Assembly: GCF_026241135.1 (NCBI RefSeq)
Contig: NZ_JAPFGA010000003.1
Location: 186,001-250,000 of the forward strand
Source: Galbibacter kalidii
GTDB lineage: Bacteria; Bacteroidota; Bacteroidia; Flavobacteriales; Flavobacteriaceae
Direction of reading: 5' to 3'
Length of the DNA stretch: 64,000 bases
The notes below the pieces were generated by a model. The model searched no databases, was not told where the DNA came from, and was given only the letters and a program-made list of their open reading frames with translations. The translations under genes were made by a program, and so were the position numbers. Positions 1,586 to 33,950 of the stretch are shown one piece after another (the first letter of the stretch is position 1; every line of letters starts with the position of its first letter).

Positions 1586-2278
1586 TTATCCTCCTGCGTA
1601 GATATAGGCGCAGCCGTGTTCTTGTGCACGACCCAACGCCCATACCCCTGAAGGAACTAATTGAATCTCGGGAAGAATACCATCTACCCACTCTTTATAA
1701 ACTTTATCGGTATCCATATCCATTTTTCCTGCAATTATACCACTGTAGACCTTTATAGCAAGGTTACAGACACAAAACATAGCTCCTCTTTCTTGCAGCC
1801 GTTTTATCCCATCTATGCCCGGAAGTGGAAAATCTCCTTCCCGTGGCTCATAATAGGGATTGCGAAGTGATGGTTTTTGGGTAGCATTATCATTTATTTT
1901 AAAAACTTCTCCCAGCTTATATTTTTTCCAAATACGGGAATGCAACACAAAAGGGATGGCGTCATGCCTTAAGACGGTCATGGCCGTAATTTCACTATCG
2001 GCAGATCCTGTTTCATTGTTGGTCAGGTAATAAGCCCAGTTCCATATAATTGGAAAGCCATCGTGAGGCATGGAACCGTCATAAACAACCCTGTGTTCAC
2101 CTTTTATTTTTTTGAACCATGCCTCGGCATCTCCCTTAGCCATAATTTTTTCATCGTCAAATGAAGGTAGGTTGACCAGAGGGTTTAAAGGATTTGAAAT
2201 TGCCGCAAACGTACTAGCCGTTGCTCCAAGTGCGAGTGCACCCACAAACTTTCGTCTTGATTGGTGATTTTTCTTCAT
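1586..2278 (-). CDS. Tat-exported DsrE-like protein
   Basis: A 230-residue protein with a twin-arginine signal at the N-terminus (SRRKFVGALALGA), so it is exported folded to the periplasm. The mature part resembles the DsrE/DsrF-like fold: a central VLRHDAIPFVL strand, a cysteine-containing GAMFCVCNLAI segment near residue 170, and the late LVPSGVWALGRAQEHG stretch that matches the 'aGv..i..lq..G' end of DsrE-type proteins. Known DsrE proteins handle sulfane sulfur or act as small redox and sulfur-relay proteins. Here the two close cysteines are the candidate reactive residues. The gene starts only 2 bases after the stop of the TsdA-like cytochrome gene, so the two are almost certainly co-translated. 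A thiosulfate/tetrathionate-linked role is inferred from that context. Confidence 0.75.
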   Translation of the reverse strand: MKKNHQSRRKFVGALALGATASTFAAISNPLNPLVNLPSFDDEKIMAKGDAEAWFKKIKGEHRVVYDGSMPHDGFPIIWNWAYYLTNNETGSADSEITAMTVLRHDAIPFVLHSRIWKKYKLGEVFKINDNATQKPSLRNPYYEPREGDFPLPGIDGIKRLQERGAMFCVCNLAIKVYSGIIAGKMDMDTDKVYKEWVDGILPEIQLVPSGVWALGRAQEHGCAYIYAGG

Positions 2279-2280
2279 GT

Positions 2281-3324
2281 TTACTGATTTTTAATTAAAT
2301 TATATTCTTTTTTATAGTATTCCATTATCGGCTGAAACGGCCCCAGTTGATGCTCTTGTTCTGAAAAATTATCCGTATAAGGACCATAGGGTGTGGATAC
2401 CGGCTTTTTTTTCAAATCGGGAAAATCCACATCCAAATTTTTCTTTTCAGGCCTATTCTGCTGATTAATGAATCCGGCAACATCGTAGGCTTCTTCATCT
2501 GTTAAAACAGGGGCTTCATACGTGGTTCCATAGGGCATATTTGCTTTGATAAAGTTCGCTGCAGTTATCACCCGGGTCATTCCGGCTCCATTATTATATG
2601 AATCCTCCCCCCACAAAGGGGGATATTGATAGAGATATCCATCTTCACCCATTTTACCCTGTCCATTATTGCCGTGACATTCAGTACAGCGGTTTACAAA
2701 AACTTCCTTTCCATGTTTCAAATTCACCGGTCTATTGGGAATCTGTATTTTCACAAATCCTTGTCCTTCAATCCTTCCATCATCCGGAGCATAACGGCTT
2801 AACCACTCCAAATAGGCGATAAATGCCTTCATTTCCTTTGAATCTTCTGGCAATACCCTTCCATTCATACTTCGCTGCATACAGCCATTGATCCTTTCTT
2901 CCAATGTTCCCAACTTATTCTCCCTATTTCTGAACTGGGGGAAACGTTGCACTATACCTATCAAAGGAGCTGCATACGGCTTTGTCCCCATCTGCAGATG
3001 ACAGTTATTACACGATAAGCGATTCCCGGCAAAATTCATTTGTTCACTTTCACTGTCCGGCCCCAAGTATTTTTGGGTGCTTTTAAAAAGCTCATAGCCA
3101 TAAGTTATGGCTTCTTCTTTTTCAAAGCCCTTTAAGTTTGATACCCCATAATCGTATTCATATACATCGACAGTTCCATTCCTTGAAAAAAATTCTTTCA
3201 TCATCCCGGAAGCATAGAATGAAACCAATAACGACAAGACAACCACAGCTGAAGTGGACACTAAAAGTATCTTGTACAACTGCCTTAATCCATGAATAAA
3301 ATTGTTTTGATTATGATTGGACAT
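2281..3324 (-). CDS. Dihaem cytochrome c, thiosulfate dehydrogenase (TsdA)-like
   Basis: A 347-residue protein with an N-terminal membrane anchor (about residues 18-38) and two CXXCH haem sites, CNNCH at 105-109 and CTECH at 213-217. Between them lies GCMQRSMNG with Cys148, 39 residues after the first haem histidine. In TsdA enzymes a cysteine at about this distance is the unusual axial ligand of haem 1, and the surrounding R(S/x)MNG pattern also fits the family. TsdA enzymes interconvert thiosulfate and tetrathionate in the periplasm. The C-terminal 60 residues are proline- and charge-rich and may tether or dock the protein. It is first in a minus-strand pair with the DsrE-like gene. An alternative reading is a generic SoxX/SoxA-type or CccA cytochrome, but the Cys-ligand motif favours TsdA. 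Confidence 0.8.
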   Translation of the reverse strand: MSNHNQNNFIHGLRQLYKILLVSTSAVVVLSLLVSFYASGMMKEFFSRNGTVDVYEYDYGVSNLKGFEKEEAITYGYELFKSTQKYLGPDSESEQMNFAGNRLSCNNCHLQMGTKPYAAPLIGIVQRFPQFRNRENKLGTLEERINGCMQRSMNGRVLPEDSKEMKAFIAYLEWLSRYAPDDGRIEGQGFVKIQIPNRPVNLKHGKEVFVNRCTECHGNNGQGKMGEDGYLYQYPPLWGEDSYNNGAGMTRVITAANFIKANMPYGTTYEAPVLTDEEAYDVAGFINQQNRPEKKNLDVDFPDLKKKPVSTPYGPYTDNFSEQEHQLGPFQPIMEYYKKEYNLIKNQ

Positions 3325-8702: not shown

Positions 8703-10415
8703 TTACCAGCCCGGGTTTTGTTCATAAACACCGTTAGACAGTCTTATTTCTGACTCAGGGACGGGAACCAATCCTTTGGTTTCCGATCTGTATTGTACAC
8801 TATATGTAGCATCAACACCCGAGTTTCTAACATCTATTTGATTTCCAAAAGCATCTTCCACATCTCCCCAGCGAACAAGGTCGAACCAACGCAAGCCTTC
8901 AAAAGCAAGTTCGTGCATACGCTCTTCCTTTAAGGCTTCCAAAGAATAGCCAATAGCACCTAATCCTGCTCTGTTACGTACAGCATTCATTCCGTCTGAA
9001 GTTTCAGAAATTTCCGAATGCATCAATAATACATCGGCAAAACGCATATAAACATAATCTTGTGCTGCCCATAACTGCATATCAGCGTTGTTCATATCGT
9101 ATAAAAAGTAGAACATTCCTTGCACTCCGTCTTGTCCATCAGGATCATCATGCTTTATGGTTATATATTTTTTATTGACCAAGCCTGTTTCATGATCTCC
9201 TTTATCAAGTTCCCATGCATCAGTACCTTGCTCCGGATCGCCCTGTTGAAGAATGGATCCTTGCTTTCTTAAATCAGCATCATCCCACTGATTCCACAAT
9301 GTAGGATTTACAGATCCCCAGCCCCATCCTTGTCCGAAAGGCATAAGGTTAGGGTTATCACGAATTCCAAAGAAAAGGGGAGCCCTGTTATTGTATTGCT
9401 GTCCCCAATCCCAGTTGGTTGTTGAATAACGTTGGACAAACATAAATTCGTTATTTCCTGTTCCGAAAGTTGGAGTTAATCCATCCTGCCCTGCCCACAT
9501 CAGTCCTTCAGTTTCTGCCCATGGAAGTACTACCTCCCCGGCGCTTGTATTCACATAGGAATATGGCCATAGGTTTCTAAAATCATCGACTAAACCATAT
9601 CCACTATTATTGATACAATCGTTTAGATAGGCAAGTACTTGAGATTTGTTTATAGAGCCTCCTTCAGGCAAAGGTAAATCACTAGTTGCTTGTCCTTCAA
9701 TATTGGTCATATATCCCGTATAGAACAAAAATATCCTTGCCATATAGGCCTGTGCTACCCATTTGTTAGCATGGCCATATCTAGCCGTTGGAATACTAGG
9801 AAAGGGGGTCGAAGGCAACAGCTCTATCGCTGTCTTAAAGTCCGCTGCAATTTGTGCAAAAGTCTCAGAATAGGAGGCTCTTGGTACATCCCTAGGTGCA
9901 TCAACCGTAGGAATTATAGGCATCCCTCCAAAGAATTTTGCAGCTCTATAATAGAAGAAACCACGCATAAAATAGGCTTCCCCTATCGTTTCCTGCTTAA
10001 AAGTTTCTGCTTCATCTTCATTTATAAAAAATTCAGAAAAATCCGCCTCTTCAACTTTTTCTAAAATGGCATTACATCGGTTTATCCCATTATAGGTTTC
10101 TACCCATAGATCTTTATAGGTATCCTCTTCGGGATCTTTAAAACCATCTACATTTTTTGCCGATCGGTCATCAGGACCACCACCACCAAGCATCATATCT
10201 GAAAGTAGGTTGGCTGCAACAGCTTCATCACTGTGCACTCCTGCAGTATACAGTGCACTATACACTCCTGACATCGCTTCTTCAATATCATCAGGAGTAC
10301 GATAAAAGTTATTCAAACTTTTTTCATAAAGATTATCCGTTTCCAAAAACTCTTCACTACAACTTACTGATAGTATCAGTGCAGCGACGGTTATACTATA
10401 TATTAATTTTTTCAT
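8703..10415 (-). CDS. SusD/RagB family nutrient-binding outer-membrane lipoprotein
   Basis: A protein of about 570 residues from the ATG at 10415, with lipoprotein signal ILSVSCSEEFL. A slightly earlier ATG (10433) overlaps the susC stop and would add six residues. SusD features are clear: the early EKSLNNFYRTPDDIEEAMSG and TYNGINRCNAILEKVE segments, the AEAYFMRGFFYYRAAKFFGG-like helix (here GEAYFMRGFFYY), and the C-terminal block with ERMHELAFEGLRWFDLVRWG and VPVPESEI. SusD proteins sit as a lid over SusC and capture oligosaccharides at the cell surface. The gene lies directly after susC, with a downstream binding lipoprotein. Confidence 0.93.
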   Translation of the reverse strand: MKKLIYSITVAALILSVSCSEEFLETDNLYEKSLNNFYRTPDDIEEAMSGVYSALYTAGVHSDEAVAANLLSDMMLGGGGPDDRSAKNVDGFKDPEEDTYKDLWVETYNGINRCNAILEKVEEADFSEFFINEDEAETFKQETIGEAYFMRGFFYYRAAKFFGGMPIIPTVDAPRDVPRASYSETFAQIAADFKTAIELLPSTPFPSIPTARYGHANKWVAQAYMARIFLFYTGYMTNIEGQATSDLPLPEGGSINKSQVLAYLNDCINNSGYGLVDDFRNLWPYSYVNTSAGEVVLPWAETEGLMWAGQDGLTPTFGTGNNEFMFVQRYSTTNWDWGQQYNNRAPLFFGIRDNPNLMPFGQGWGWGSVNPTLWNQWDDADLRKQGSILQQGDPEQGTDAWELDKGDHETGLVNKKYITIKHDDPDGQDGVQGMFYFLYDMNNADMQLWAAQDYVYMRFADVLLMHSEISETSDGMNAVRNRAGLGAIGYSLEALKEERMHELAFEGLRWFDLVRWGDVEDAFGNQIDVRNSGVDATYSVQYRSETKGLVPVPESEIRLSNGVYEQNPGW

Positions 10416-10432
10416 TGTTTTACTTTTTATCA

Positions 10433-13400
10433 TTAAAAATCAACACTCAATCCAAGCATTACTGTTCTTGGTAAGGGATATAAACCTAAATCTACTCCTG
10501 ACGCCCACGGTGTACCATCATTTCCACCATAGGTAACTTCAGGATCCATTCCATCATATCCTGTAAACGTATACAGGTTATTGACAGAAGTATAAATATT
10601 GACGTCTTTGATATAATCTACATCGTCTAAATACTGTCCAAGTCTAAACCCAACAGTTAAGTTGCTGATTCTTAAATAATCAGCATCGTGCATATAAATA
10701 TCTGATATCCATTGGGTATTTCTGTTGGATATTGAACTCATACGTGGCAATCTGTTTGACGTTCCTTCTCCATGCCAACGATCAAAGATTCCTGTAGTAT
10801 AGTTTTGATCAAAACTATCGGCAAACGAACGGTAGGACTGCATGACCTGCATCCCAAATTTTCCTGCCATGGTTACATTGGCATAAAAACCTTTGTATTC
10901 AGCATTCAACTGAAGTCCTAGTTCAAAATCAGGATTTGGATTTCCCAACTTTACTTTATCAGCTTCATCGATCACCCCATCTTGATTTTGATCTACAAAA
11001 CGAACATCTCCGGGACGTTGATCGTCAAAATACGGAGTGCCATCAGTTGGTTTTACATAAGCATCCACCTCATCTTGATTTTGTAGAATCCCATCCGTTT
11101 CAAAACCGTAGAAATACCCAATAGGATAACCTTCTTCAGCTCTTGAAATATAGGCAGTTCCCTGTGACAATATATGTGGTTCACCGGTTATAATTCCTTC
11201 AGCATTATCAATTCGGGTAACCTCGTTTTTATTATAAGCTCCTGTTACTGTAGCACCATAGGAGAAATCCCCTATATCATCATTCCACGACAACATCACT
11301 TCAAATCCGGTATTTTCTATATCCCCTCCATTAATGATAGGTGGTGCTGCTCCGGCTGTTCCCAATTGAGGAGCTTCGACCAACCAATCTATGGTTTTTT
11401 TCTTGTACCAATCGGCTGTAAAAGCCAAACGAGAACTTAAAAATCGTGTATCAATACCTATATTTAATTGTTCTGAAGTTTCCCAAGTCACATCTGGGTT
11501 TGGTATTCTCGATGGAATAGCTGTAGAACCATATGTTGGTTTTGTATCTCCAAAATAATATCCAGGGGTAATATAAGAAAGTGTTGAACTATATATGAAA
11601 TTACTTATGTTTTGGTTACCGTTTTGTCCCCAACTTGCTCTAAGCTTGATAAAGCTATCTGTATCCATAAAGTCTTCAGCACTTATAATCCACCCTGCAG
11701 ATACAGAAGGGAAATACCCCCATCTATTTCCTTCAGCAAAGTTTGAAGAACCATCGGCACGCATAGTAGCTGACAATAAATATTTTTCTTTATAGTTATA
11801 TTGAGCCCTGGCAATATAAGAGAGTATTCCTCCACCTCCGGCAGCCCAATCGGCTCCCCAGGTATCTATCCCTCCTATTTTGTCTTTATCTACATTGTTT
11901 AAGAATGCAAAGTCAGGTGATCCGAATTGCGAATCTGCTTTAGTTCCCCCTACTTCAAAATTGATTTCATTTTTATAGGCTTCAGTACCGATCAAAGCAG
12001 TTATTTTGTGATCTCCAAAAGTGGTGTCATAAGAAAGGGTATTGGTCCATGTTGAATTATTCCCCAGATATTGACTTTGAGTAACACCATCTGTATTGTT
12101 ACCGTAAAGTACACCTAAATTAAAGACCGGATTCCATGACCTGCCATGACCAAACCAAGCATTAATACCATAGGAAGATCTAAATTTTAAACCTTCCAAA
12201 GGTTCAATCTCCATATATACATTCCCTACTACAGTATTGCTTTTATTACCAAGGTTGGAAAAGTTATGGCGGTAATACATCACAGCCACCGGATTGTGTT
12301 GAAATTCAGACAATCCACCCATCGTTGGTGTAAAACCATACTGATCAGGAGATTCATCCCAATATGCCGGCATTAAAGGGTGTTGTACCAAACCGTTGTG
12401 CAAATCATTCCAATAAATATTTCCGGTTGCAACACTTCTATTTTCTGTTTGGGAATAGGTGAAGTTTTCTCCAACGGTAATGATACTGTGGTTGTCGTTT
12501 TTAAATAATACAAACTCTGTATTTAATCGGGTAGTCAACCTTTTAAATCCGGCATCGGTAATATTACCTCCTATAATCCCTTTCTGGTCGAAGTATGAAG
12601 CCCCTAAAGCATAGGTGATATCTTCACTTCCTCCGGTAATATTAATGGAGTGATTGGATACCGGTGCATTTTTCATGGTCATTTCGTCAATCCAGTTGGT
12701 ACCTTCCCAACCGTTTTCCAACATCGTCCATACATGATCCCCTAACTCTGTTCCTAATTCACCTGGAAAAGTATCGTTTATCCAAGTGTTATTTTTAATC
12801 ATGGTTTCCCAGTCAAAAGGAGCTTGTCCCTCATTAACCCTTCCTTCATCCATAATATACATATACTCCTGAGCATTTAACGGAGTCAAGTTTTTGTATA
12901 TGTTTTGAAAACCGTAATAAGTTTCATAATGAACTTCTGCCTGTCTTGAGTTTCTACCTTTTCGAGTGGTTACCAATACAACCCCGTTTGCAGCTCGTGA
13001 ACCATAAATAGCTGCAGAAGCAGCATCTTTTAGGACATCGATACTTTCAATATCCCCGGAACTCAGGTAATCGATATTTCCTACCGCTACCCCATCAACA
13101 ATATATAGTGGATTTGAATTTCCGATAGTACCCAATCCACGAATGGTTACTTTGGTTCCTGCACCCGGTGCACCGTTGTTTCTACTAATACTTACTCCAG
13201 GAGTAACCCCCTGTAGGGCTTCCATAGCTGTTCCGGTATTCAGTCTAGCTATATCCTCTCCTTTTACATTTATATTAGCCCCGGTAGTAAGTGCTTTCTT
13301 TTGCACACCATATCCTACCACTACAACCTCTTCCAAGGCTTCCAAGGATTCTTCCATGGTAACATTGATCGTGGTTTGGTCTCCTACCAGAATGGTTTGT

Positions 13401-13642
13401 GCCACCATACCTATATAGGTAAAGGCTAGCTGATCTGACGGACTAACGCCATCTAAGCCATACTTTCCATCAAAATCTGTCAAGGTCCCATTGCTTGTTC
13501 CTTCAACGAGGACAGTCACACCCGGCATAGGCATTCCTGTAGCATCAGCAACGACTCCTGTGACGGTCTTAGTTTGCGAAAATGCACTTTGTATACTAAA
13601 CAGTAACAAAGCAAGCATCGCGAATTTAAACTTTAGCTTCAT
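10433..13642 (-). CDS. SusC/RagA family TonB-linked outer-membrane receptor
   Basis: A 1069-residue protein with a signal peptide (AMLALLLFSIQSAFSQ), a carboxypeptidase-like regulatory domain (about 24-105), a TonB box region EEVVVVGYGVQKK, a plug with the SusC signature of VRGLGTIGN-type residues and DAASAAIYGSRAANG (about 115-225), and a beta-barrel ending LGLSVDF with terminal Phe. It imports oligosaccharides through the outer membrane together with SusD. It begins an operon of susC-susD-lipoprotein. Its long 5' region holds a degenerate 21-bp-period array and a dispersed repeat, with the HTCS regulator gene upstream. No CAZyme accompanies it. Confidence 0.95.
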   Translation of the reverse strand: MKLKFKFAMLALLLFSIQSAFSQTKTVTGVVADATGMPMPGVTVLVEGTSNGTLTDFDGKYGLDGVSPSDQLAFTYIGMVAQTILVGDQTTINVTMEESLEALEEVVVVGYGVQKKALTTGANINVKGEDIARLNTGTAMEALQGVTPGVSISRNNGAPGAGTKVTIRGLGTIGNSNPLYIVDGVAVGNIDYLSSGDIESIDVLKDAASAAIYGSRAANGVVLVTTRKGRNSRQAEVHYETYYGFQNIYKNLTPLNAQEYMYIMDEGRVNEGQAPFDWETMIKNNTWINDTFPGELGTELGDHVWTMLENGWEGTNWIDEMTMKNAPVSNHSINITGGSEDITYALGASYFDQKGIIGGNITDAGFKRLTTRLNTEFVLFKNDNHSIITVGENFTYSQTENRSVATGNIYWNDLHNGLVQHPLMPAYWDESPDQYGFTPTMGGLSEFQHNPVAVMYYRHNFSNLGNKSNTVVGNVYMEIEPLEGLKFRSSYGINAWFGHGRSWNPVFNLGVLYGNNTDGVTQSQYLGNNSTWTNTLSYDTTFGDHKITALIGTEAYKNEINFEVGGTKADSQFGSPDFAFLNNVDKDKIGGIDTWGADWAAGGGGILSYIARAQYNYKEKYLLSATMRADGSSNFAEGNRWGYFPSVSAGWIISAEDFMDTDSFIKLRASWGQNGNQNISNFIYSSTLSYITPGYYFGDTKPTYGSTAIPSRIPNPDVTWETSEQLNIGIDTRFLSSRLAFTADWYKKKTIDWLVEAPQLGTAGAAPPIINGGDIENTGFEVMLSWNDDIGDFSYGATVTGAYNKNEVTRIDNAEGIITGEPHILSQGTAYISRAEEGYPIGYFYGFETDGILQNQDEVDAYVKPTDGTPYFDDQRPGDVRFVDQNQDGVIDEADKVKLGNPNPDFELGLQLNAEYKGFYANVTMAGKFGMQVMQSYRSFADSFDQNYTTGIFDRWHGEGTSNRLPRMSSISNRNTQWISDIYMHDADYLRISNLTVGFRLGQYLDDVDYIKDVNIYTSVNNLYTFTGYDGMDPEVTYGGNDGTPWASGVDLGLYPLPRTVMLGLSVDF

Positions 13643-13722
13643 TGTTTAATCATTTAAGTTAATTGAGTTAGATCTATGTTTGAAAGTTTGTGTAAAGCAC
13701 TATAGCCGGGTTTATACTTTCA

Positions 13723-13827
13723 TCAGAAAATATAAAAGACCAAAAAAACCAATAAGCCTATAATGATTAGGGTTAAAAGGATCTCTATAAGGGTTCTCCA
13801 GCCATGCTTTTCAAAAAATTTCTTCAT
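13723..13827 (-). CDS. Possible 34-residue single-span membrane peptide
   Basis: A short frame with ATG at 13827 encodes a basic start (MKKFFEKHGWR) followed by an unbroken hydrophobic helix rich in Leu, Ile, Val and Phe (TLIEILLTLIIIGLLVFLVF) and stops at once. The positive-inside start plus one perfect transmembrane segment in an otherwise AT-rich spacer is unlikely by chance. It lies just upstream of susC on the same strand. No family is recognised and the evidence is composition only. Confidence 0.4.
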   Translation of the reverse strand: MKKFFEKHGWRTLIEILLTLIIIGLLVFLVFYIF

Positions 13828-13859
13828 TATGTAAATGTTAAAAAAACATTAAATGAAGA

Positions 13860-14290
13860 ATATCACGTATTAAGCAATTGCTAGAACATTTGATGCAGTT
13901 TTTATAACAAATAGAGTAGTTGCAACATAATTTATATTTGATGCAACATTTGTTATATTATTGTAGAAATCAGTAAATGAAAGTATTATGGTATTCCGCC
14001 TGATACGTCTAATAACATATCTAGACAGGTTCTTGACCTCAACGGATACGTCCAACAATATATCCGATAGGTTAATACCCTTTTGGATACGCTCACCAAC
14101 GTATATGGAGAGGTTCCAAACCCCTAGGGTACGTTCAACAATGCTCGGGACAGGTTTTTAACCCAGACAAATGGATTGACAGACCTATTAAAAGGTATTT
14201 TTTACCCCGAGGGATGGTTTTTCAACGTATCGGAAGGTGTAAATGACCGTTGTGGATAGGTGAAAATAACCTTTGAAGGGTTGTGTCAAA
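13860..14290. repeat. Degenerate tandem array with ~21-bp (41-42-bp double) period
   Basis: The clearest part, 14001-14290, repeats a unit of 41-42 bp. AGGT anchors fall at 14027, 14069, 14111, 14152, 14193 and 14235, with AGGGT at 14277, and GGATACG-like anchors fall at 14001, 14044, 14085 and 14127. Each unit splits into two similar halves of about 21 bp. A weaker 21-bp rhythm around TTGATGCAAC extends left to about 13860. The alternating 41/42 spacing breaks any reading frame, so the array is not a coding repeat. A short TTG-started frame inside it is an artefact. Confidence 0.65.
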
Positions 14291-14298
14291 ATAAGGAC

Positions 14299-14449
14299 TG
14301 TCTTCTAAAAAGAAAATTTTAGCACAATTTGTCAGTCTGAGCCTGTCGATGACTCGTTGATTTTCAATTGACTATGCTTATACAGCCCTTCGACAGGCTC
14401 AGGGTGGCATTACTCAGCATGACATCTGAATTTGCAACTTTTTAGAAGG
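14299..14449. repeat. Dispersed ~150-bp palindromic repeat, copy B
   Basis: Bounded by TCTAAAAAG (14304-14312) and CTTTTTAGA (14438-14446), with GAGCCTGTCGA and the opposing TTCGACAGGCTC inside. It matches the reverse complement of the element at 1394-1545, including CATGACATCTGAATTTGCA near one end. It directly follows the HTCS stop codon and could serve as its 3' hairpin. Confidence 0.7.
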
Positions 14450-14455
14450 CAACCT

Positions 14456-17400
14456 CTACTCCTCTGGATCTATTTCTACTGTGACTTGTGTGGGTAGAAT
14501 CCCAAAATAACTTTTAAAGCATTTGGTAAAATATGAAGATGATGAGAACCCAACGGCATAGGACACTTCACTTATATTGGAATTACCTGCCTGAATTAAC
14601 ACCTTGGCTTTATGAAGCCTTATATTTCTTATAAACTCATTGGCTGTTTGATTGGTCAGTGCCTTTATTTTTCGGTATACCTGACTCCTACTCAAATTGA
14701 GATGAACTGCTAAGGATTCTACCCCAATGTCAGGGTCATCTATATGTGAATTGATATAGTTCAATACTTTTTGTATAAATTCCTTGTCTAAAGAAGTGGT
14801 ATTGGCATTGGCAGGTAGATCGCTGATACCACTAAAATATTTATTAAAGATCAACTGCCTACTCGTGATCAATTGCGACAAACGCAGCTTTAAAAGGCGC
14901 ATATCAAAGGGTTTTACCATATAGGCGTCTGCCCCTATTTCTATGCCATCTATTCTATCATCAATCTTAGCTTTGGCAGTAAGCATCAACAGAGGGATAT
15001 GACTGGTTCCGATATCTGTTTTTATATGTTTACAAAAGGTCAACCCGTCCATTTTCGGCATGATAACGTCCGTTAAAATAACATCAGGAAGTATCTCTTT
15101 TGCCAATTTCAATCCTTCTTTACCGTGATTTGCAGTGACTACTTTATACTGACTTGTCAGTTCGCTTTTTAAATAATTACGCAACTCGATATTATCTTCC
15201 ACGATAAGTAATGTATACACGTTTACAGAAACATCATTTGAATTATTTTCCTTCAACTGAACAGCACCGGTATCCGACCTTAGGTATTTTTCTTTTGAAG
15301 AAATAACATCTGAATTTAGGGTTGTTTGAATCTCACTTTCCCCAAAGTGCTTCTTCCCTACGGGTAATTGAACCTTAAACATTGTGCCCTTTCCTATTTC
15401 GCTGCTCACTTTAATTTTCCCTTTGTGCAAATTGACAAAACTCTGCACAACTTCCAAGCCAATTCCGGTGCCGCCATAATAGGTTTTATTCAAACTTTCA
15501 ACCTGATAAAAACGCTCAAACATTTTGTTGAGTTCCTCTTTTTCTATCCCCACCCCGGTATCTGAAACAACAATTTCTATGGCTTTACTTTGATAACCTT
15601 CTTCTACCAACGGAAAATCAATAATGTTATCGCTGGCATATAACGCAACATTGATACTGCCCCCTTCCGGAGTAGCCTTAAAAGCATTTGAAACAATGTT
15701 AAAAATCACTTTTTCAATCATGTTTTCATCTGCCCATACTATAATATCTTTTTGATCGCTGTCGTAGCTCAGGTCAATCCTTTTTTCCAAAGCCTCTTCT
15801 TTAAAGTAAGCAATAACATTTTCTGTTAATTCTTCTAAATTAATTCTTGTAGCCTTAACGTTTATTTTGTTGAATTCCAGTCTTCTAAAATCCAAAAGCT
15901 CATTCACCAATCGGTGTAGTCTGGCCGTGTTTTTATGAATGATGCGATGCTTCTCCTTAATCTTTGGGGAAAGGTTCAGGTCTTTATTGTTTATAATATC
16001 CTGAAGTGGATTCATGATCAGGGTTAAAGGTGTTCTAAACTCATGGGAAATGTTGGTGAAGAACTGGAACTTTTTCTCATTCAACTCTTTTTCTTGCTGT
16101 CTTTTTTCCCGCTCATATTTTGCCAGTTGCTTTTCACGGATTCTATTTTGGGTCAATTTATTCAAAATAAAAAGTCCTAATAAGAACAGTCCGATATATG
16201 ACGCTAAGGCCCAATTCGTTTTCCACCACGGAGGTAATACCGTAATTTTAAGCTCCAAAGGGTTTGTGCTCCAAACACCATCGTTGTTAGACGATTTTAG
16301 CTTAAAAACATAATTCCCGGGGTCTAAGTTGGTGTATGTGGCACTTTTATTAGTCCCCACATAGTTCCAGATGTTTTCATATCCATCTAAATAATAAGCA
16401 TATTCATTTTTTTCCGGTCGGGTATAATTGATTCCTGAATATTCGATGGTAAAAACTGCTTGTTGATTTGTAAGCGAAATACTATCGGTTTGAGTAATCA
16501 CTTTTTTTAGTGGGGAATTTGACTCGGTTGGACCTATTTTTTTATTGTAGATCTTCAGTTCTGACAGATACAAATGGTTTTCACGTGTATTGGTTTTTAT
16601 ATGATCAGGATCAAAATAATCTACTCCGCCATAGCCCCCAAAATAAATCTCCCCACGGGAATCTCTATACGTTGCATTCATATTAAAATCATTGGACAAC
16701 AAGCCGTCATATATGGTGAAATTGGTAAACTCTTTTGTTTTTGTGTCCATTTTTACGATTCCGGAATTCCCGGACACCCAAATATTGTGATCGTTGCTTT
16801 CAATAATTCCACATATATTATCCAGTGGCAAGCCATTTAATTTATTATACCAGGTTAGCTTATCATTATCTATATCATATTTACATAATCCGGCACCTTT
16901 GGTACCGATCCATAAAATCCCATTTTCACTTTCGTATAGGGAAAGGATATGATTGGCTGTTGTTGCATTGTCATATTTCTCTCCCATTCTATCCAGCATA
17001 GAAACAATCTCAAACTTTCCATTTTTATTTTGGATTTTGAAAAGTCCATGTGTAGTCCCCAACCACAAGTTATCTTTACTATCTGCCAAAACTTTCCAGG
17101 CATCGCAATTTGATAATCCATGTTCTATGAAAGCCTGAGAACTGTGGTGTGTAAACTCTTTTGTGTTTGGATCGTATGAATGTAATCCATTGTGGAATGT
17201 TGCTATCCAAATAATCCCTTTTAAATCTTCGGTAATACTAACAATGGTATTGGATTTAAGTTTTCCCCTAGTGTTTTCTGTATTGAAGTTGATCCATTTT
17301 TTTGTGCCGTTTTTCAAAAAATAGATTCCTTTATCCCAACTTCCGGCCCATTTATTTTTCTTACTATCTATAAACACACATTGTATGTATTCACTACCCA

Positions 17401-18628
17401 ATCCGCCATATTCACCCTTGGTTTGTTTGTTGATATGGGTGAATTTTTTTGTTTTTTTATTGTAAAGATCTATTCCTCCACCATCCATCCCTATCCAAAA
17501 CCTTCCTTGTTCATCTTCAGCAATAGATGAAACAGAACTTGTGTGTAAAGAATTTGAGTTGTTATAGATGCTTTCCAGTCCGTTGAATTTGTCATGCAAT
17601 TCGTCGTAAACAGCAATACCTTTATTGTAATAACCCAACCAAACCCTATCATCGTGATCGGTAAACAAAGACCAAATGGAATTAGACAGTAAGCTTTTCT
17701 CGTCTTTGTTACTGGCCAAGTAGTGATGTATGATATTCCCTTCAGCATCTATATGAAACAAACCGTCGTTTTCTGTACCACACAACAAAGTCCCGTCTTT
17801 CAAATCTGTTAGAGAAAAGAAAAGGTTGTTGGATATCTTGAAATTCTCTATGGTACGGATACCGGTGTCATCACCATTAAAATGACTCAGCTTAAAAATT
17901 CCATCATAATTAGATCCAGCCCATATATTGTCGTCGTCATCTATTAACAATGACTCCATATGGACCTTTATATATTCTCCATTTAAGAATACCGAAGGTT
18001 TTATAAGGTTCTTCTCTTTATCATATTCTTGTAATCCCAGATTTGTAGCTGCGTATATTTTTCCCTTTTTATCAACTTTGATGGAATACACAGTAAGAGG
18101 TATAGACTGATTTAAGGGACTGTTCAAAACTTGTTTTATGGCAAAACTGGATAGATCCAAGACATAGAGTCCCTGTCCGAAGGTTCCTATATACAAGCTT
18201 CCATCGTTTCCCTGTTGTAAACTTCTGATAGCAATATTGGTATTTTCATCAACCCCAAATTCAGTGTTTGGTATTCTTATAAATCGGTCTTTATTTCTAT
18301 CATAAAGGTTTAATCCTTCCCCAGTTCCGACCCATAATCTATCTTTATCATCCAAATAAGTGCTGTATACTATACTACTGTTTAATGAAGTGGAATCGTT
18401 TAGTGTGAACCTGTAAGATTTATAATCCAAACCATCATAGCGATACAAACCTGAACCATTGGTGCCAATCCACATAAAGCCATAATCGTCTTGATTGATG
18501 GTATATATCCCCACTTTGGGCACATCGCCCATCCTGCTCACAAAATTGAATCTTGGAGAGACATCCTGAGACCATGAAATAGCACTTAACAGCAATACTA
18601 AATAAGCAATAAGTCTATTATTAAGCAT
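14456..18628 (-). CDS. Hybrid two-component system regulator (HTCS) of the first PUL
   Basis: A 1390-residue one-protein two-component system. In order: a signal peptide; a periplasmic double beta-propeller with many 'D..G.LWIGT...GL..YD' repeats (residues about 25-700); a Y_Y_Y domain (about 745-800); a membrane helix (about 804-824); a HisKA domain with phospho-accepting His in TNISHEFRTPL; a HATPase domain; a receiver domain with LLIVEDN and the phospho-Asp in LTDVIMPKMDG; and a C-terminal AraC-type HTH (about 1286-1390). Such proteins sense an oligosaccharide in the periplasm and activate the adjacent PUL. It lies upstream of susC on the same strand. It is divergent from a TPR-AraC regulator, with a CRP-type palindrome between them. 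Confidence 0.95.
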   Translation of the reverse strand: MLNNRLIAYLVLLLSAISWSQDVSPRFNFVSRMGDVPKVGIYTINQDDYGFMWIGTNGSGLYRYDGLDYKSYRFTLNDSTSLNSSIVYSTYLDDKDRLWVGTGEGLNLYDRNKDRFIRIPNTEFGVDENTNIAIRSLQQGNDGSLYIGTFGQGLYVLDLSSFAIKQVLNSPLNQSIPLTVYSIKVDKKGKIYAATNLGLQEYDKEKNLIKPSVFLNGEYIKVHMESLLIDDDDNIWAGSNYDGIFKLSHFNGDDTGIRTIENFKISNNLFFSLTDLKDGTLLCGTENDGLFHIDAEGNIIHHYLASNKDEKSLLSNSIWSLFTDHDDRVWLGYYNKGIAVYDELHDKFNGLESIYNNSNSLHTSSVSSIAEDEQGRFWIGMDGGGIDLYNKKTKKFTHINKQTKGEYGGLGSEYIQCVFIDSKKNKWAGSWDKGIYFLKNGTKKWINFNTENTRGKLKSNTIVSITEDLKGIIWIATFHNGLHSYDPNTKEFTHHSSQAFIEHGLSNCDAWKVLADSKDNLWLGTTHGLFKIQNKNGKFEIVSMLDRMGEKYDNATTANHILSLYESENGILWIGTKGAGLCKYDIDNDKLTWYNKLNGLPLDNICGIIESNDHNIWVSGNSGIVKMDTKTKEFTNFTIYDGLLSNDFNMNATYRDSRGEIYFGGYGGVDYFDPDHIKTNTRENHLYLSELKIYNKKIGPTESNSPLKKVITQTDSISLTNQQAVFTIEYSGINYTRPEKNEYAYYLDGYENIWNYVGTNKSATYTNLDPGNYVFKLKSSNNDGVWSTNPLELKITVLPPWWKTNWALASYIGLFLLGLFILNKLTQNRIREKQLAKYEREKRQQEKELNEKKFQFFTNISHEFRTPLTLIMNPLQDIINNKDLNLSPKIKEKHRIIHKNTARLHRLVNELLDFRRLEFNKINVKATRINLEELTENVIAYFKEEALEKRIDLSYDSDQKDIIVWADENMIEKVIFNIVSNAFKATPEGGSINVALYASDNIIDFPLVEEGYQSKAIEIVVSDTGVGIEKEELNKMFERFYQVESLNKTYYGGTGIGLEVVQSFVNLHKGKIKVSSEIGKGTMFKVQLPVGKKHFGESEIQTTLNSDVISSKEKYLRSDTGAVQLKENNSNDVSVNVYTLLIVEDNIELRNYLKSELTSQYKVVTANHGKEGLKLAKEILPDVILTDVIMPKMDGLTFCKHIKTDIGTSHIPLLMLTAKAKIDDRIDGIEIGADAYMVKPFDMRLLKLRLSQLITSRQLIFNKYFSGISDLPANANTTSLDKEFIQKVLNYINSHIDDPDIGVESLAVHLNLSRSQVYRKIKALTNQTANEFIRNIRLHKAKVLIQAGNSNISEVSYAVGFSSSSYFTKCFKSYFGILPTQVTVEIDPEE

Positions 18629-33680: not shown

Positions 33681-33804
33681 TGTGATATTATGATAGTTGT
33701 TATGGAAAGCCTAATCTTGTTTTAAAACAGCAAATATGCAATAATAGTAATTATACTAGCAAACAGGCTAATCAGTAAAGCGTTAAAAATAAATTTTGAC
33801 TTCA

Positions 33805-33950
33805 TATGGGCAAGTACTGTGGCATAAATTAAAATTACTACGCTAGAATGTAAAACTACTATGCCCCAATGTAAAGTTACTTTGTCTTATATTAGAATTA
33901 CTTCACGTCAAAGTAGAATAACGATGATCCAATATTAGAATTACATTACC
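33805..33950. repeat. Seven-unit 21-bp degenerate tandem array
   Basis: Seven consecutive units start at 33805, 33826, 33847, 33868, 33889, 33910 and 33931, each exactly 21 bp except the last (20). The middle TAC is aligned at position 11-13 of units one to five, AAC in unit six and TAC one base later in unit seven. The consensus is close to AATnTARAATTACTnnG. All frames contain stops. Confidence 0.75.

Follow-up and report, generated by a model that had tools for sequence, protein, structure and literature searches.

The window, a stretch of 64,000 nucleotides of the Galbibacter kalidii genome, carries upstream of a susC-like gene a non-coding tandem array whose units follow each other every 21 bp or so. 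This array is viewed, at about an even chance, as a solo member, decayed in part, of a class of non-coding tandem arrays that is held together by the 21-bp spacing and not by sequence, and whose members would be helically phased platforms for protein binding. Arrays of this type are periodic, dispersed in the genus, linked to genes in part of the loci and devoid of a coding signal, and they change slowly in one species pair; protein binding, the identity of the binder and the function are what we infer from these features. No description of such arrays was found in the open-licence literature and the class is apparently undescribed. Taken alone, the window copy would fit a "non-coding minisatellite".

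Autocorrelation of positions 13860-14290, the check that an earlier note on this DNA had suggested, leaves the note's reading of a phased repeat standing. Lags 21 (z 6.4), 42 (z 5.2) and 84 (z 4.6) are each significant at a family-wise p <0.001, taken over lags 1-130 against 1000 dinucleotide-preserving shuffles, and the claimed periodicity is thus above chance. The segment 13990-14290 gives lags 84 (z 6.2), 42 (z 4.8), 21 (z 4.8) and 43 (z 4.7), with family-wise p <0.001. Within the best-kept part (13990-14170) lags 84, 41 and 43 are significant (family-wise p 0.000, 0.003 and 0.004) while lag 21 is not (z 3.1, p 0.15), so that in this part the signal of the 41-43-bp pair dominates and the two halves are less similar.

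Anchors of the GGATACGT type cut the array, from 14001 onwards, into units of 22, 21, 21, 20, 22, 20 and 21 bp that are followed by a degenerate tail to ~14290. The mean unit step is 20.8 bp, and members of the same sequence family elsewhere alternate 21 and 22 bp. The array proper (14001..14168, + strand) comprises four A+B pairs of ~41-43 bp starting at 14001, 14044, 14085 and 14127, with GGATACGTCnACnAACGTATCT and GGATAGGTTCATAACCCCGTC as the two ~21-bp unit types. In the tail (14169..14290, + strand) anchors GGATGG.., GGAAGG.. and GGATAGG.. still keep close to the 21-bp register; some other arrays, judged by eye, have similar GGTTAAA/GGATGG-type ends on that side. The division of a 41-42-bp unit into two similar halves of ~21 bp is borne out by this splitting, though the pairs run 41-43 bp, and unit lengths of 20-22 bp agree with the proposed step of about two DNA turns. 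The start proposed at 13860 has to be moved, for 13860-13990 holds a separate ATGTTGCA pair and the array proper begins at 14001.

A sequence model of the family, built on 15 seeds that include the window's own units, places the array at 14002-14248 in an nhmmer search (best score 60.9). Tandem Repeats Finder lists no array at this site, probably owing to too much divergence among the copies, and the three Rfam matches in 13600-14500 are all far below the gathering score. No repeat class that fits the array could be named previously, and none is named here either.

Segment 14001-14290 has at least three stops per frame in all six frames which, together with the 41-43-bp steps, confirms that the window array is non-coding. 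A decayed coding repeat of seven residues is hardly credible. It would draw on 21 being divisible by three and on the presence of at least one open frame in 20 of 30 arrays that were picked because they show arrays, the other 10 having none. It is refuted for the window array by the stops in every frame and is not favoured elsewhere: codon-like (3-periodic) variability reaches p<0.05 in one of the 30 arrays, and the arrays of relatives, where a decayed coding repeat had been considered, show no coding sign. Coding is least excluded for two GC-rich loci of genome G750 that belong to the X2 gene family described below.

The array lies between a gene coding for a hybrid two-component (HTCS) regulator with Reg_prop, Y_Y_Y, HisKA, HATPase, receiver and AraC-type HTH domains (14456..18628, - strand) and a gene for a susC-like TonB-dependent receptor with Plug and CarboxypepD_reg-like domains (10433..13642, - strand), after which comes a SusD-like gene (8703-10433). 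None of 25 homologous regulator-susC spacers, taken from 80 homologous loci, has a comparable array: the joint 21+42 score of the best 180 bp is 8.2 in the window and at most 5.5 in the 25 spacers. The array had been given a role in this spacer, a claim that falls with its absence from all 25 homologues and with the presence of kin arrays beside unrelated genes; it is probably incidental to the susC operon.

The same spacer holds, apart from the array, a direct repeat ATGTTGCAT / ATGTTGCAA with 21-bp spacing (13920..13949, - strand), predicted to be an HTCS operator. Besides the window, 9 of 12 homologous loci out of the 80 have the ATGTTGCA pair exactly 21 bp apart, a count that allowed up to two mismatches per word and spacings of 18-24 and was made without a shuffle null. 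In PMC3878776, the predicted sites of Bacteroides HTCS regulators are direct repeats with ~21-bp spacing; in one example 5 bp separate two sites of 16 bp. The pair at 13920-13949 is likely the operator of the HTCS regulator, a conserved promoter-side element. That the array itself would be a multi-site operator of the adjacent regulator, the setting chosen by the earlier note, could appeal to this ~21-bp spacing and to the pair next door, but is very improbable given its absence from 25/25 homologous spacers, the occurrence of the same family by unrelated genes and a sequence unlike ATGTTGCA. HTCS operators as described there (PMC3878776) share with the arrays direct repeats at ~21-bp spacing and occur as one pair per sugar-operon promoter, whereas the arrays have ~6-26 units, are often dyadic and are mostly found by unrelated genes. 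A likely false regulatory tie to the susC operon is removed in this way, and the probable operator next door is indicated instead.

Relatives of the window array are found elsewhere in the genus. With the DNA of the whole spacer as query against 40 related genomes, the array recurs at other sites of its own genome and in congeners, other parts of the spacer giving matches too. An 86-position sequence model detects the family in five of seven genomes of the genus, its own included, and under stricter filters in 3 of 299 genomes of the bacterial family, one of these matches being weak. The window's genome (G000) has five arrays: four are solo (the window array, L009, L061 and L062) and one (L010) is linked to a gene termed X1. 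The four other genomes have 5-7 array sites each. Within its own genome the window array matches L009 at 74% over 174 bp (E 2e-25) and the X1-linked L010 at 73% over 146 bp (E 3e-17). The Galbibacter model also matches two loci from another bacterial family, L272 (E 2.5e-7) and L293 (E 6.9e-7).

The Galbibacter arrays are intergenic and their neighbours carry, by Pfam name, RimO-like radical-SAM, aldose epimerase, SAICAR synthetase, MepB-like, ParD, CpsB/CapC, GH9 and other domains. A fixed gene neighbour was considered and rejected, since most neighbours are unrelated. Exceptions are X1 (3 of 36 contexts), a site between convergent rimO-like and Dabb genes (three genomes) and a ~300-aa gene; the remaining 33 contexts yielded no relic of the X1 gene (best E 0.32). 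The ~300-aa gene is found in L011 (5209-6111) and in L084, the weak array locus of a genome of another genus (G274), lies 1.2-1.5 kb from the array and is 78% identical between the two. Among 16 arrays between co-directional genes, 13 are oriented against them in a hand count based on mechanical ORF calls. Phage and plasmid records, searched at distant sensitivity, gave no match to the L009 array DNA. A viral origin was rejected as well, a pattern scan of viral contigs giving two matches that appear by eye to be chance similarity in unrelated sequence.

Two observations concern the movement of arrays. The convergent rimO-like/Dabb site is occupied by an array in G003, G004 and G006, and has a short arrayless spacer in G000, G001, G002 and G005. 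Two arrays of G006 at different sites (L012 and L068) share, besides the array itself, at least ~60 bp of either flank, showing that the mobile unit exceeds the array.

Such filled and empty sites and common flanks, together with the intergenic position and the multiple copies of tandem ~21-bp bricks, are what would be expected of a dispersed MITE-like element with an internal minisatellite, comparable to BrickBuilt of Porphyromonas gingivalis. This is a quite improbable account, for no terminal inverted repeats or target duplications are recognised by eye and a phylum-wide linkage of unrelated sequences to X1 and X2 is unlike MITE behaviour. BrickBuilt, as presented in PMC4596501, is a MITE/minisatellite of P. 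gingivalis with 23-nt bricks, a leader and a tail with small inverted-repeat ends. Like the arrays, it belongs to Bacteroidota, is non-coding and always intergenic, and consists of multi-copy tandem short bricks without spacers (PMC4596501). Unlike them it has a 23-nt step and one sequence family, reported from one species (PMC4596501), while the period here is 21 bp (20-22 in the window) and many unrelated sequences, several bacterial families and two linked gene families are involved. BrickBuilt and the TIGR arrays discussed below are the nearest known kinds and each fails a defining feature.

The period is found well outside the sequence family of the window. Sliding autocorrelation over the collected loci, a set in which some loci recur and coding stretches are included, uncovers further period-21 stretches, several of them intergenic and with no sequence in common with the window array. 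Non-coding DNA was then scanned for periods 11-40 at a score >=9, covering 136 kb from 1.1 Mb of Galbibacter and 148 kb from 75 loci of other genera; the sample included the window and L089 for other reasons and a further set of stretches drawn blind. Eight Galbibacter segments pass. The top five, each of a different sequence, share a period of exactly 21 and lack a marked shorter sub-period, and the remaining three have periods of 14, 14 and 11. In the other genera six segments pass, with periods of 21 (L251, which has a marked short sub-period, 0.54), 14, 14, 33, 12 and 21 (L094, weak, 9.4). Unit lengths that vary by a base keep the window array below the scan threshold. A second 21-bp-phased array of the window, absent from the earlier note, has an unrelated sequence of the TGTAAAACTACTATGCCCCAA type and is located 3' of an AHSA1-domain gene (approximately 33780..33905, no strand assigned).

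The array of L010 adjoins a gene coding for a 156-aa protein (P0001), the founder of the X1 family (~150 aa). Protein searches locate X1 in 13 places in four of the seven genomes of the genus and give matches in 5 of 299 genomes of the bacterial family, while a search with a 17-row alignment reaches 26 of 395 genomes of the phylum. The 500 bp downstream of X1 exceed the 99% level of 258 shuffles (score 6.47) in 31 of 43 copies, with a period of 21 in 26, 22 in 3, 15 in 1 and 11 in 1; 14 of the 43 copies have no significant period 21 or 22 there. Upstream, the level is exceeded in 4 of 43 copies (period 15 in 3, 21 in 1). The count of 43 excludes L259 and L261, which end with the gene, L266 and L295, which have an internal stop, and L260, a weak match. 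The phylum search found 43 places outside G000, 28 of which were assigned a locus and 27 were usable; in these 27 loci, found by protein alone, period 21 is present downstream in 16 and upstream in 1.

Searches of Pfam, NCBIfam, PHROGs (best E 0.024) and PADLOC give no significant match for X1, be it to Nop, toxin-antitoxin, defence or other families. With a net charge of -7 to +4, X1 proteins are near neutral, unlike typical DNA binders. The gene is not detectable in G003 and G004, although both carry arrays, which shows that X1 is not required in the genome for array persistence. One X1 protein was not found in phage records, the 133 pattern matches in viral contigs include no relative, and tblastn of three X1 proteins and one X2 protein against 72,556 plasmid records detected none of them. 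A TPR protein of L309 picked up by the X1 profile was taken as a false match. Some X1 genes have a terminator-like hairpin, recognised by eye, ahead of the array. The X1-linked arrays of L178 (~2210-3230) and L179 (~1-1340) appear by eye to be broken by transposase-like genes, and the related X1 loci L288 and L289 have downstream a longer direct repeat (GAGCTTATGATAAGGAGGTTGTAC...) in place of the 21-bp array.

The gene beside the sampled array L211 led to a second family, X2 (~200-220 aa). A 21-bp array lies upstream of each of the five copies, which come from four genomes (scores 26.1, 12.2, 13.5, 19.4 and 26.3), and none exceeds the 6.47 level downstream (3.2-6.4). All but the first copy, which led to the family, were found by protein alone. 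One X2 protein searched against Pfam gave no match. The window array is adjoined by neither an X1 nor an X2 gene, and a profile search found no X1 gene anywhere in the window. The window copy is read as a solo or relic array on account of its degenerate units, its lack in homologous spacers and this lack of an X1 gene.

Wrap-around alignment of 27 arrays, picked because they show arrays, covers 6613 aligned nt with 2034 mismatches to the unit consensus and 44 indel events, 13 arrays having none; the indel count is a lower bound since gaps were penalised (5 bits). In L293 and L272, the only pair that is clearly collinear, the arrays differ at 27 positions, without a gap, over 294 columns (JC 0.098), while the adjacent X1 gene has a dS of 0.667 and a dN of 0.048; this test of slow change covers one species pair and its array limits were set after the alignment was seen. 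The next three 42-column windows beyond the array have an identity of 0.31-0.43. The 84 columns before it are also conserved (0.88 and 0.76, three gap columns). C-G changes are the commonest differences in this pair (9 of 27). A second pair of relatives speaks against slow change, the L175 and L176 arrays having 68% identity with 14 gaps over 257 nt.

A neutral or selfish minisatellite, in which tandem duplication makes 21-bp repeats that spread and decay and the link to X1 and X2 reflects hitch-hiking or a local mutational habit, is possible but rather unlikely. It accounts well for units that resemble each other more inside one locus than across loci, for the variable presence of an array at the rimO-like/Dabb site, for the two G006 arrays with both flanks in common, for arrays in genomes without X1 and for the diverged and gapped L175/L176 pair. 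It does not lead one to expect a single period of 21 across lineages with unrelated unit sequences, an array that evolves ~7-fold more slowly than silent sites in one pair, few indels relative to substitutions, or a gene side that is almost constant (3' for X1, 5' for X2).

Units are often dyad-symmetric. The unit profile of the window array has dyad symmetry at p<0.05, as do 15 of the 27 aligned arrays, while the clear arrays L211, L227, L238 and L286 lack it. The test is not specific, for it is passed by 21 of 50 flanks with and without arrays, including L284 and L289 which lack a 21-bp array. In 14 arrays picked for their dyads, the dyad pairs on the gene strand comprise 79 G-U and 52 A-C (50 and 37 without L287), 229 other mismatches and 932 standard pairs; the modest excess of G-U and the many other mismatches do not favour a role as RNA hairpins.

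The arrays could also act as RNA, either as a hairpin string, as RNA antitoxin-like repeats or as a guide-RNA-like array read by X1 or X2, which is distinctly unlikely. Short hairpins are possible in many units, by eye and by the dyad test, and the layout of a gene plus an array with locus-specific repeats and alternating A/B units resembles TIGR arrays as described in PMC12045711. The fixed two-turn spacing is not expected of RNA, however, G-U differs modestly from A-C and other mismatches are common, some X1 genes are followed, by eye, by a terminator-like hairpin ahead of the array, and X1 matches no Nop, toxin-antitoxin or defence family in the libraries searched. TIGR arrays of TIGR-Tas yield 36-nt RNAs and have dual repeats, 8-12-nt spacers and a Nop-domain Tas protein (PMC12045711). 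They are alike in the gene beside a long array, in the two alternating repeat types and in a sequence conserved within a locus and different between loci, whereas the arrays here have a 21-bp step and, in the Galbibacter family, a variable stretch of ~5-6 nt. Pfam finds no Nop domain in X1 or in one X2 protein, and the window array is without such a neighbour gene.

The preferred reading takes the arrays as helically phased platforms. B-DNA has 10.5 bp per turn and 21 bp correspond to about two turns, which is probably why the spacing would matter. Each unit would be one binding site, all sites lying on one face of the helix, and a protein would assemble side by side along the array to form a nucleoprotein platform. 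The linked gene, at a guess, probably encodes the binder, unless this is a partner co-evolving with the array; such a binder would explain the variety of sequences between loci while the register is kept. Of the earlier suggestion of repeated binding by one protein, the binding would still be the best reading for the class, and its setting in the regulator-susC spacer is abandoned.

In its fuller form, whose chance falls slightly short of even, the two-turn array would be an undescribed functional DNA element of Bacteroidota made of ~6-26 head-to-tail sites with fixed spacing and a sequence free to differ between loci. Each array would be tied to an X1 or X2 gene that forms or loads a nucleoprotein filament, and solo arrays would be outlying loading sites or relics. 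If so, this is a genome element set by helical geometry that annotation by sequence similarity would miss. X1 and X2, sporadic and unnamed families of Bacteroidota, would gain through their arrays a first handle, with a role testable by binding and deletion. A fixed period with free sequence would then serve as a search principle for other hidden elements.

Further known systems allow a comparison. Plasmid iterons are tandem sites of ~20-22 bp on one helical face that are bound by the product of a linked gene, at replication origins with Rep genes. The arrays resemble them in tandem ~21-bp sites facing one side of the helix, here for the proposed binding, and in a linked gene, and differ from them in that X1 and X2 match no Rep family in the libraries searched, nor did the plasmid records searched yield them. 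REP/BIME elements are short palindromes in intergenic clusters tied to RAYT genes, their units not being at a fixed 21-bp step. Short palindromes, intergenic clusters and the link to a gene family are found here too; unlike REP/BIME, the arrays have a fixed 21-bp step and X1 and X2 are without a transposase domain by Pfam. The geometry of CRISPR, with cas genes, 25-36-nt repeats and unique spacers, is different.

The regulator-susC spacer has two further elements. A 34-aa hydrophobic ORF (MKKFFEKHGWRTLIEILLTLIIIGLLVFLVFYIF; 13723..13827, - strand) upstream of susC is possibly a conserved small membrane protein. ORFs of 29-34 aa with hydrophobic ends are present in 19 of the 25 homologous HTCS-susC spacers, a count made with a filter for such ends in which some may be due to chance. 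The gap between the array and the regulator stop (14299..14456, no strand assigned) is occupied by a dispersed imperfect palindrome with a core CTGAGCCTGTCGA and outer arms TGTCTTCTAAAAAG / CTTTTTAGAAGGCA. The genome has eleven further partial matches to 14327-14456, of which one lies within the window, at ~1398-1517.
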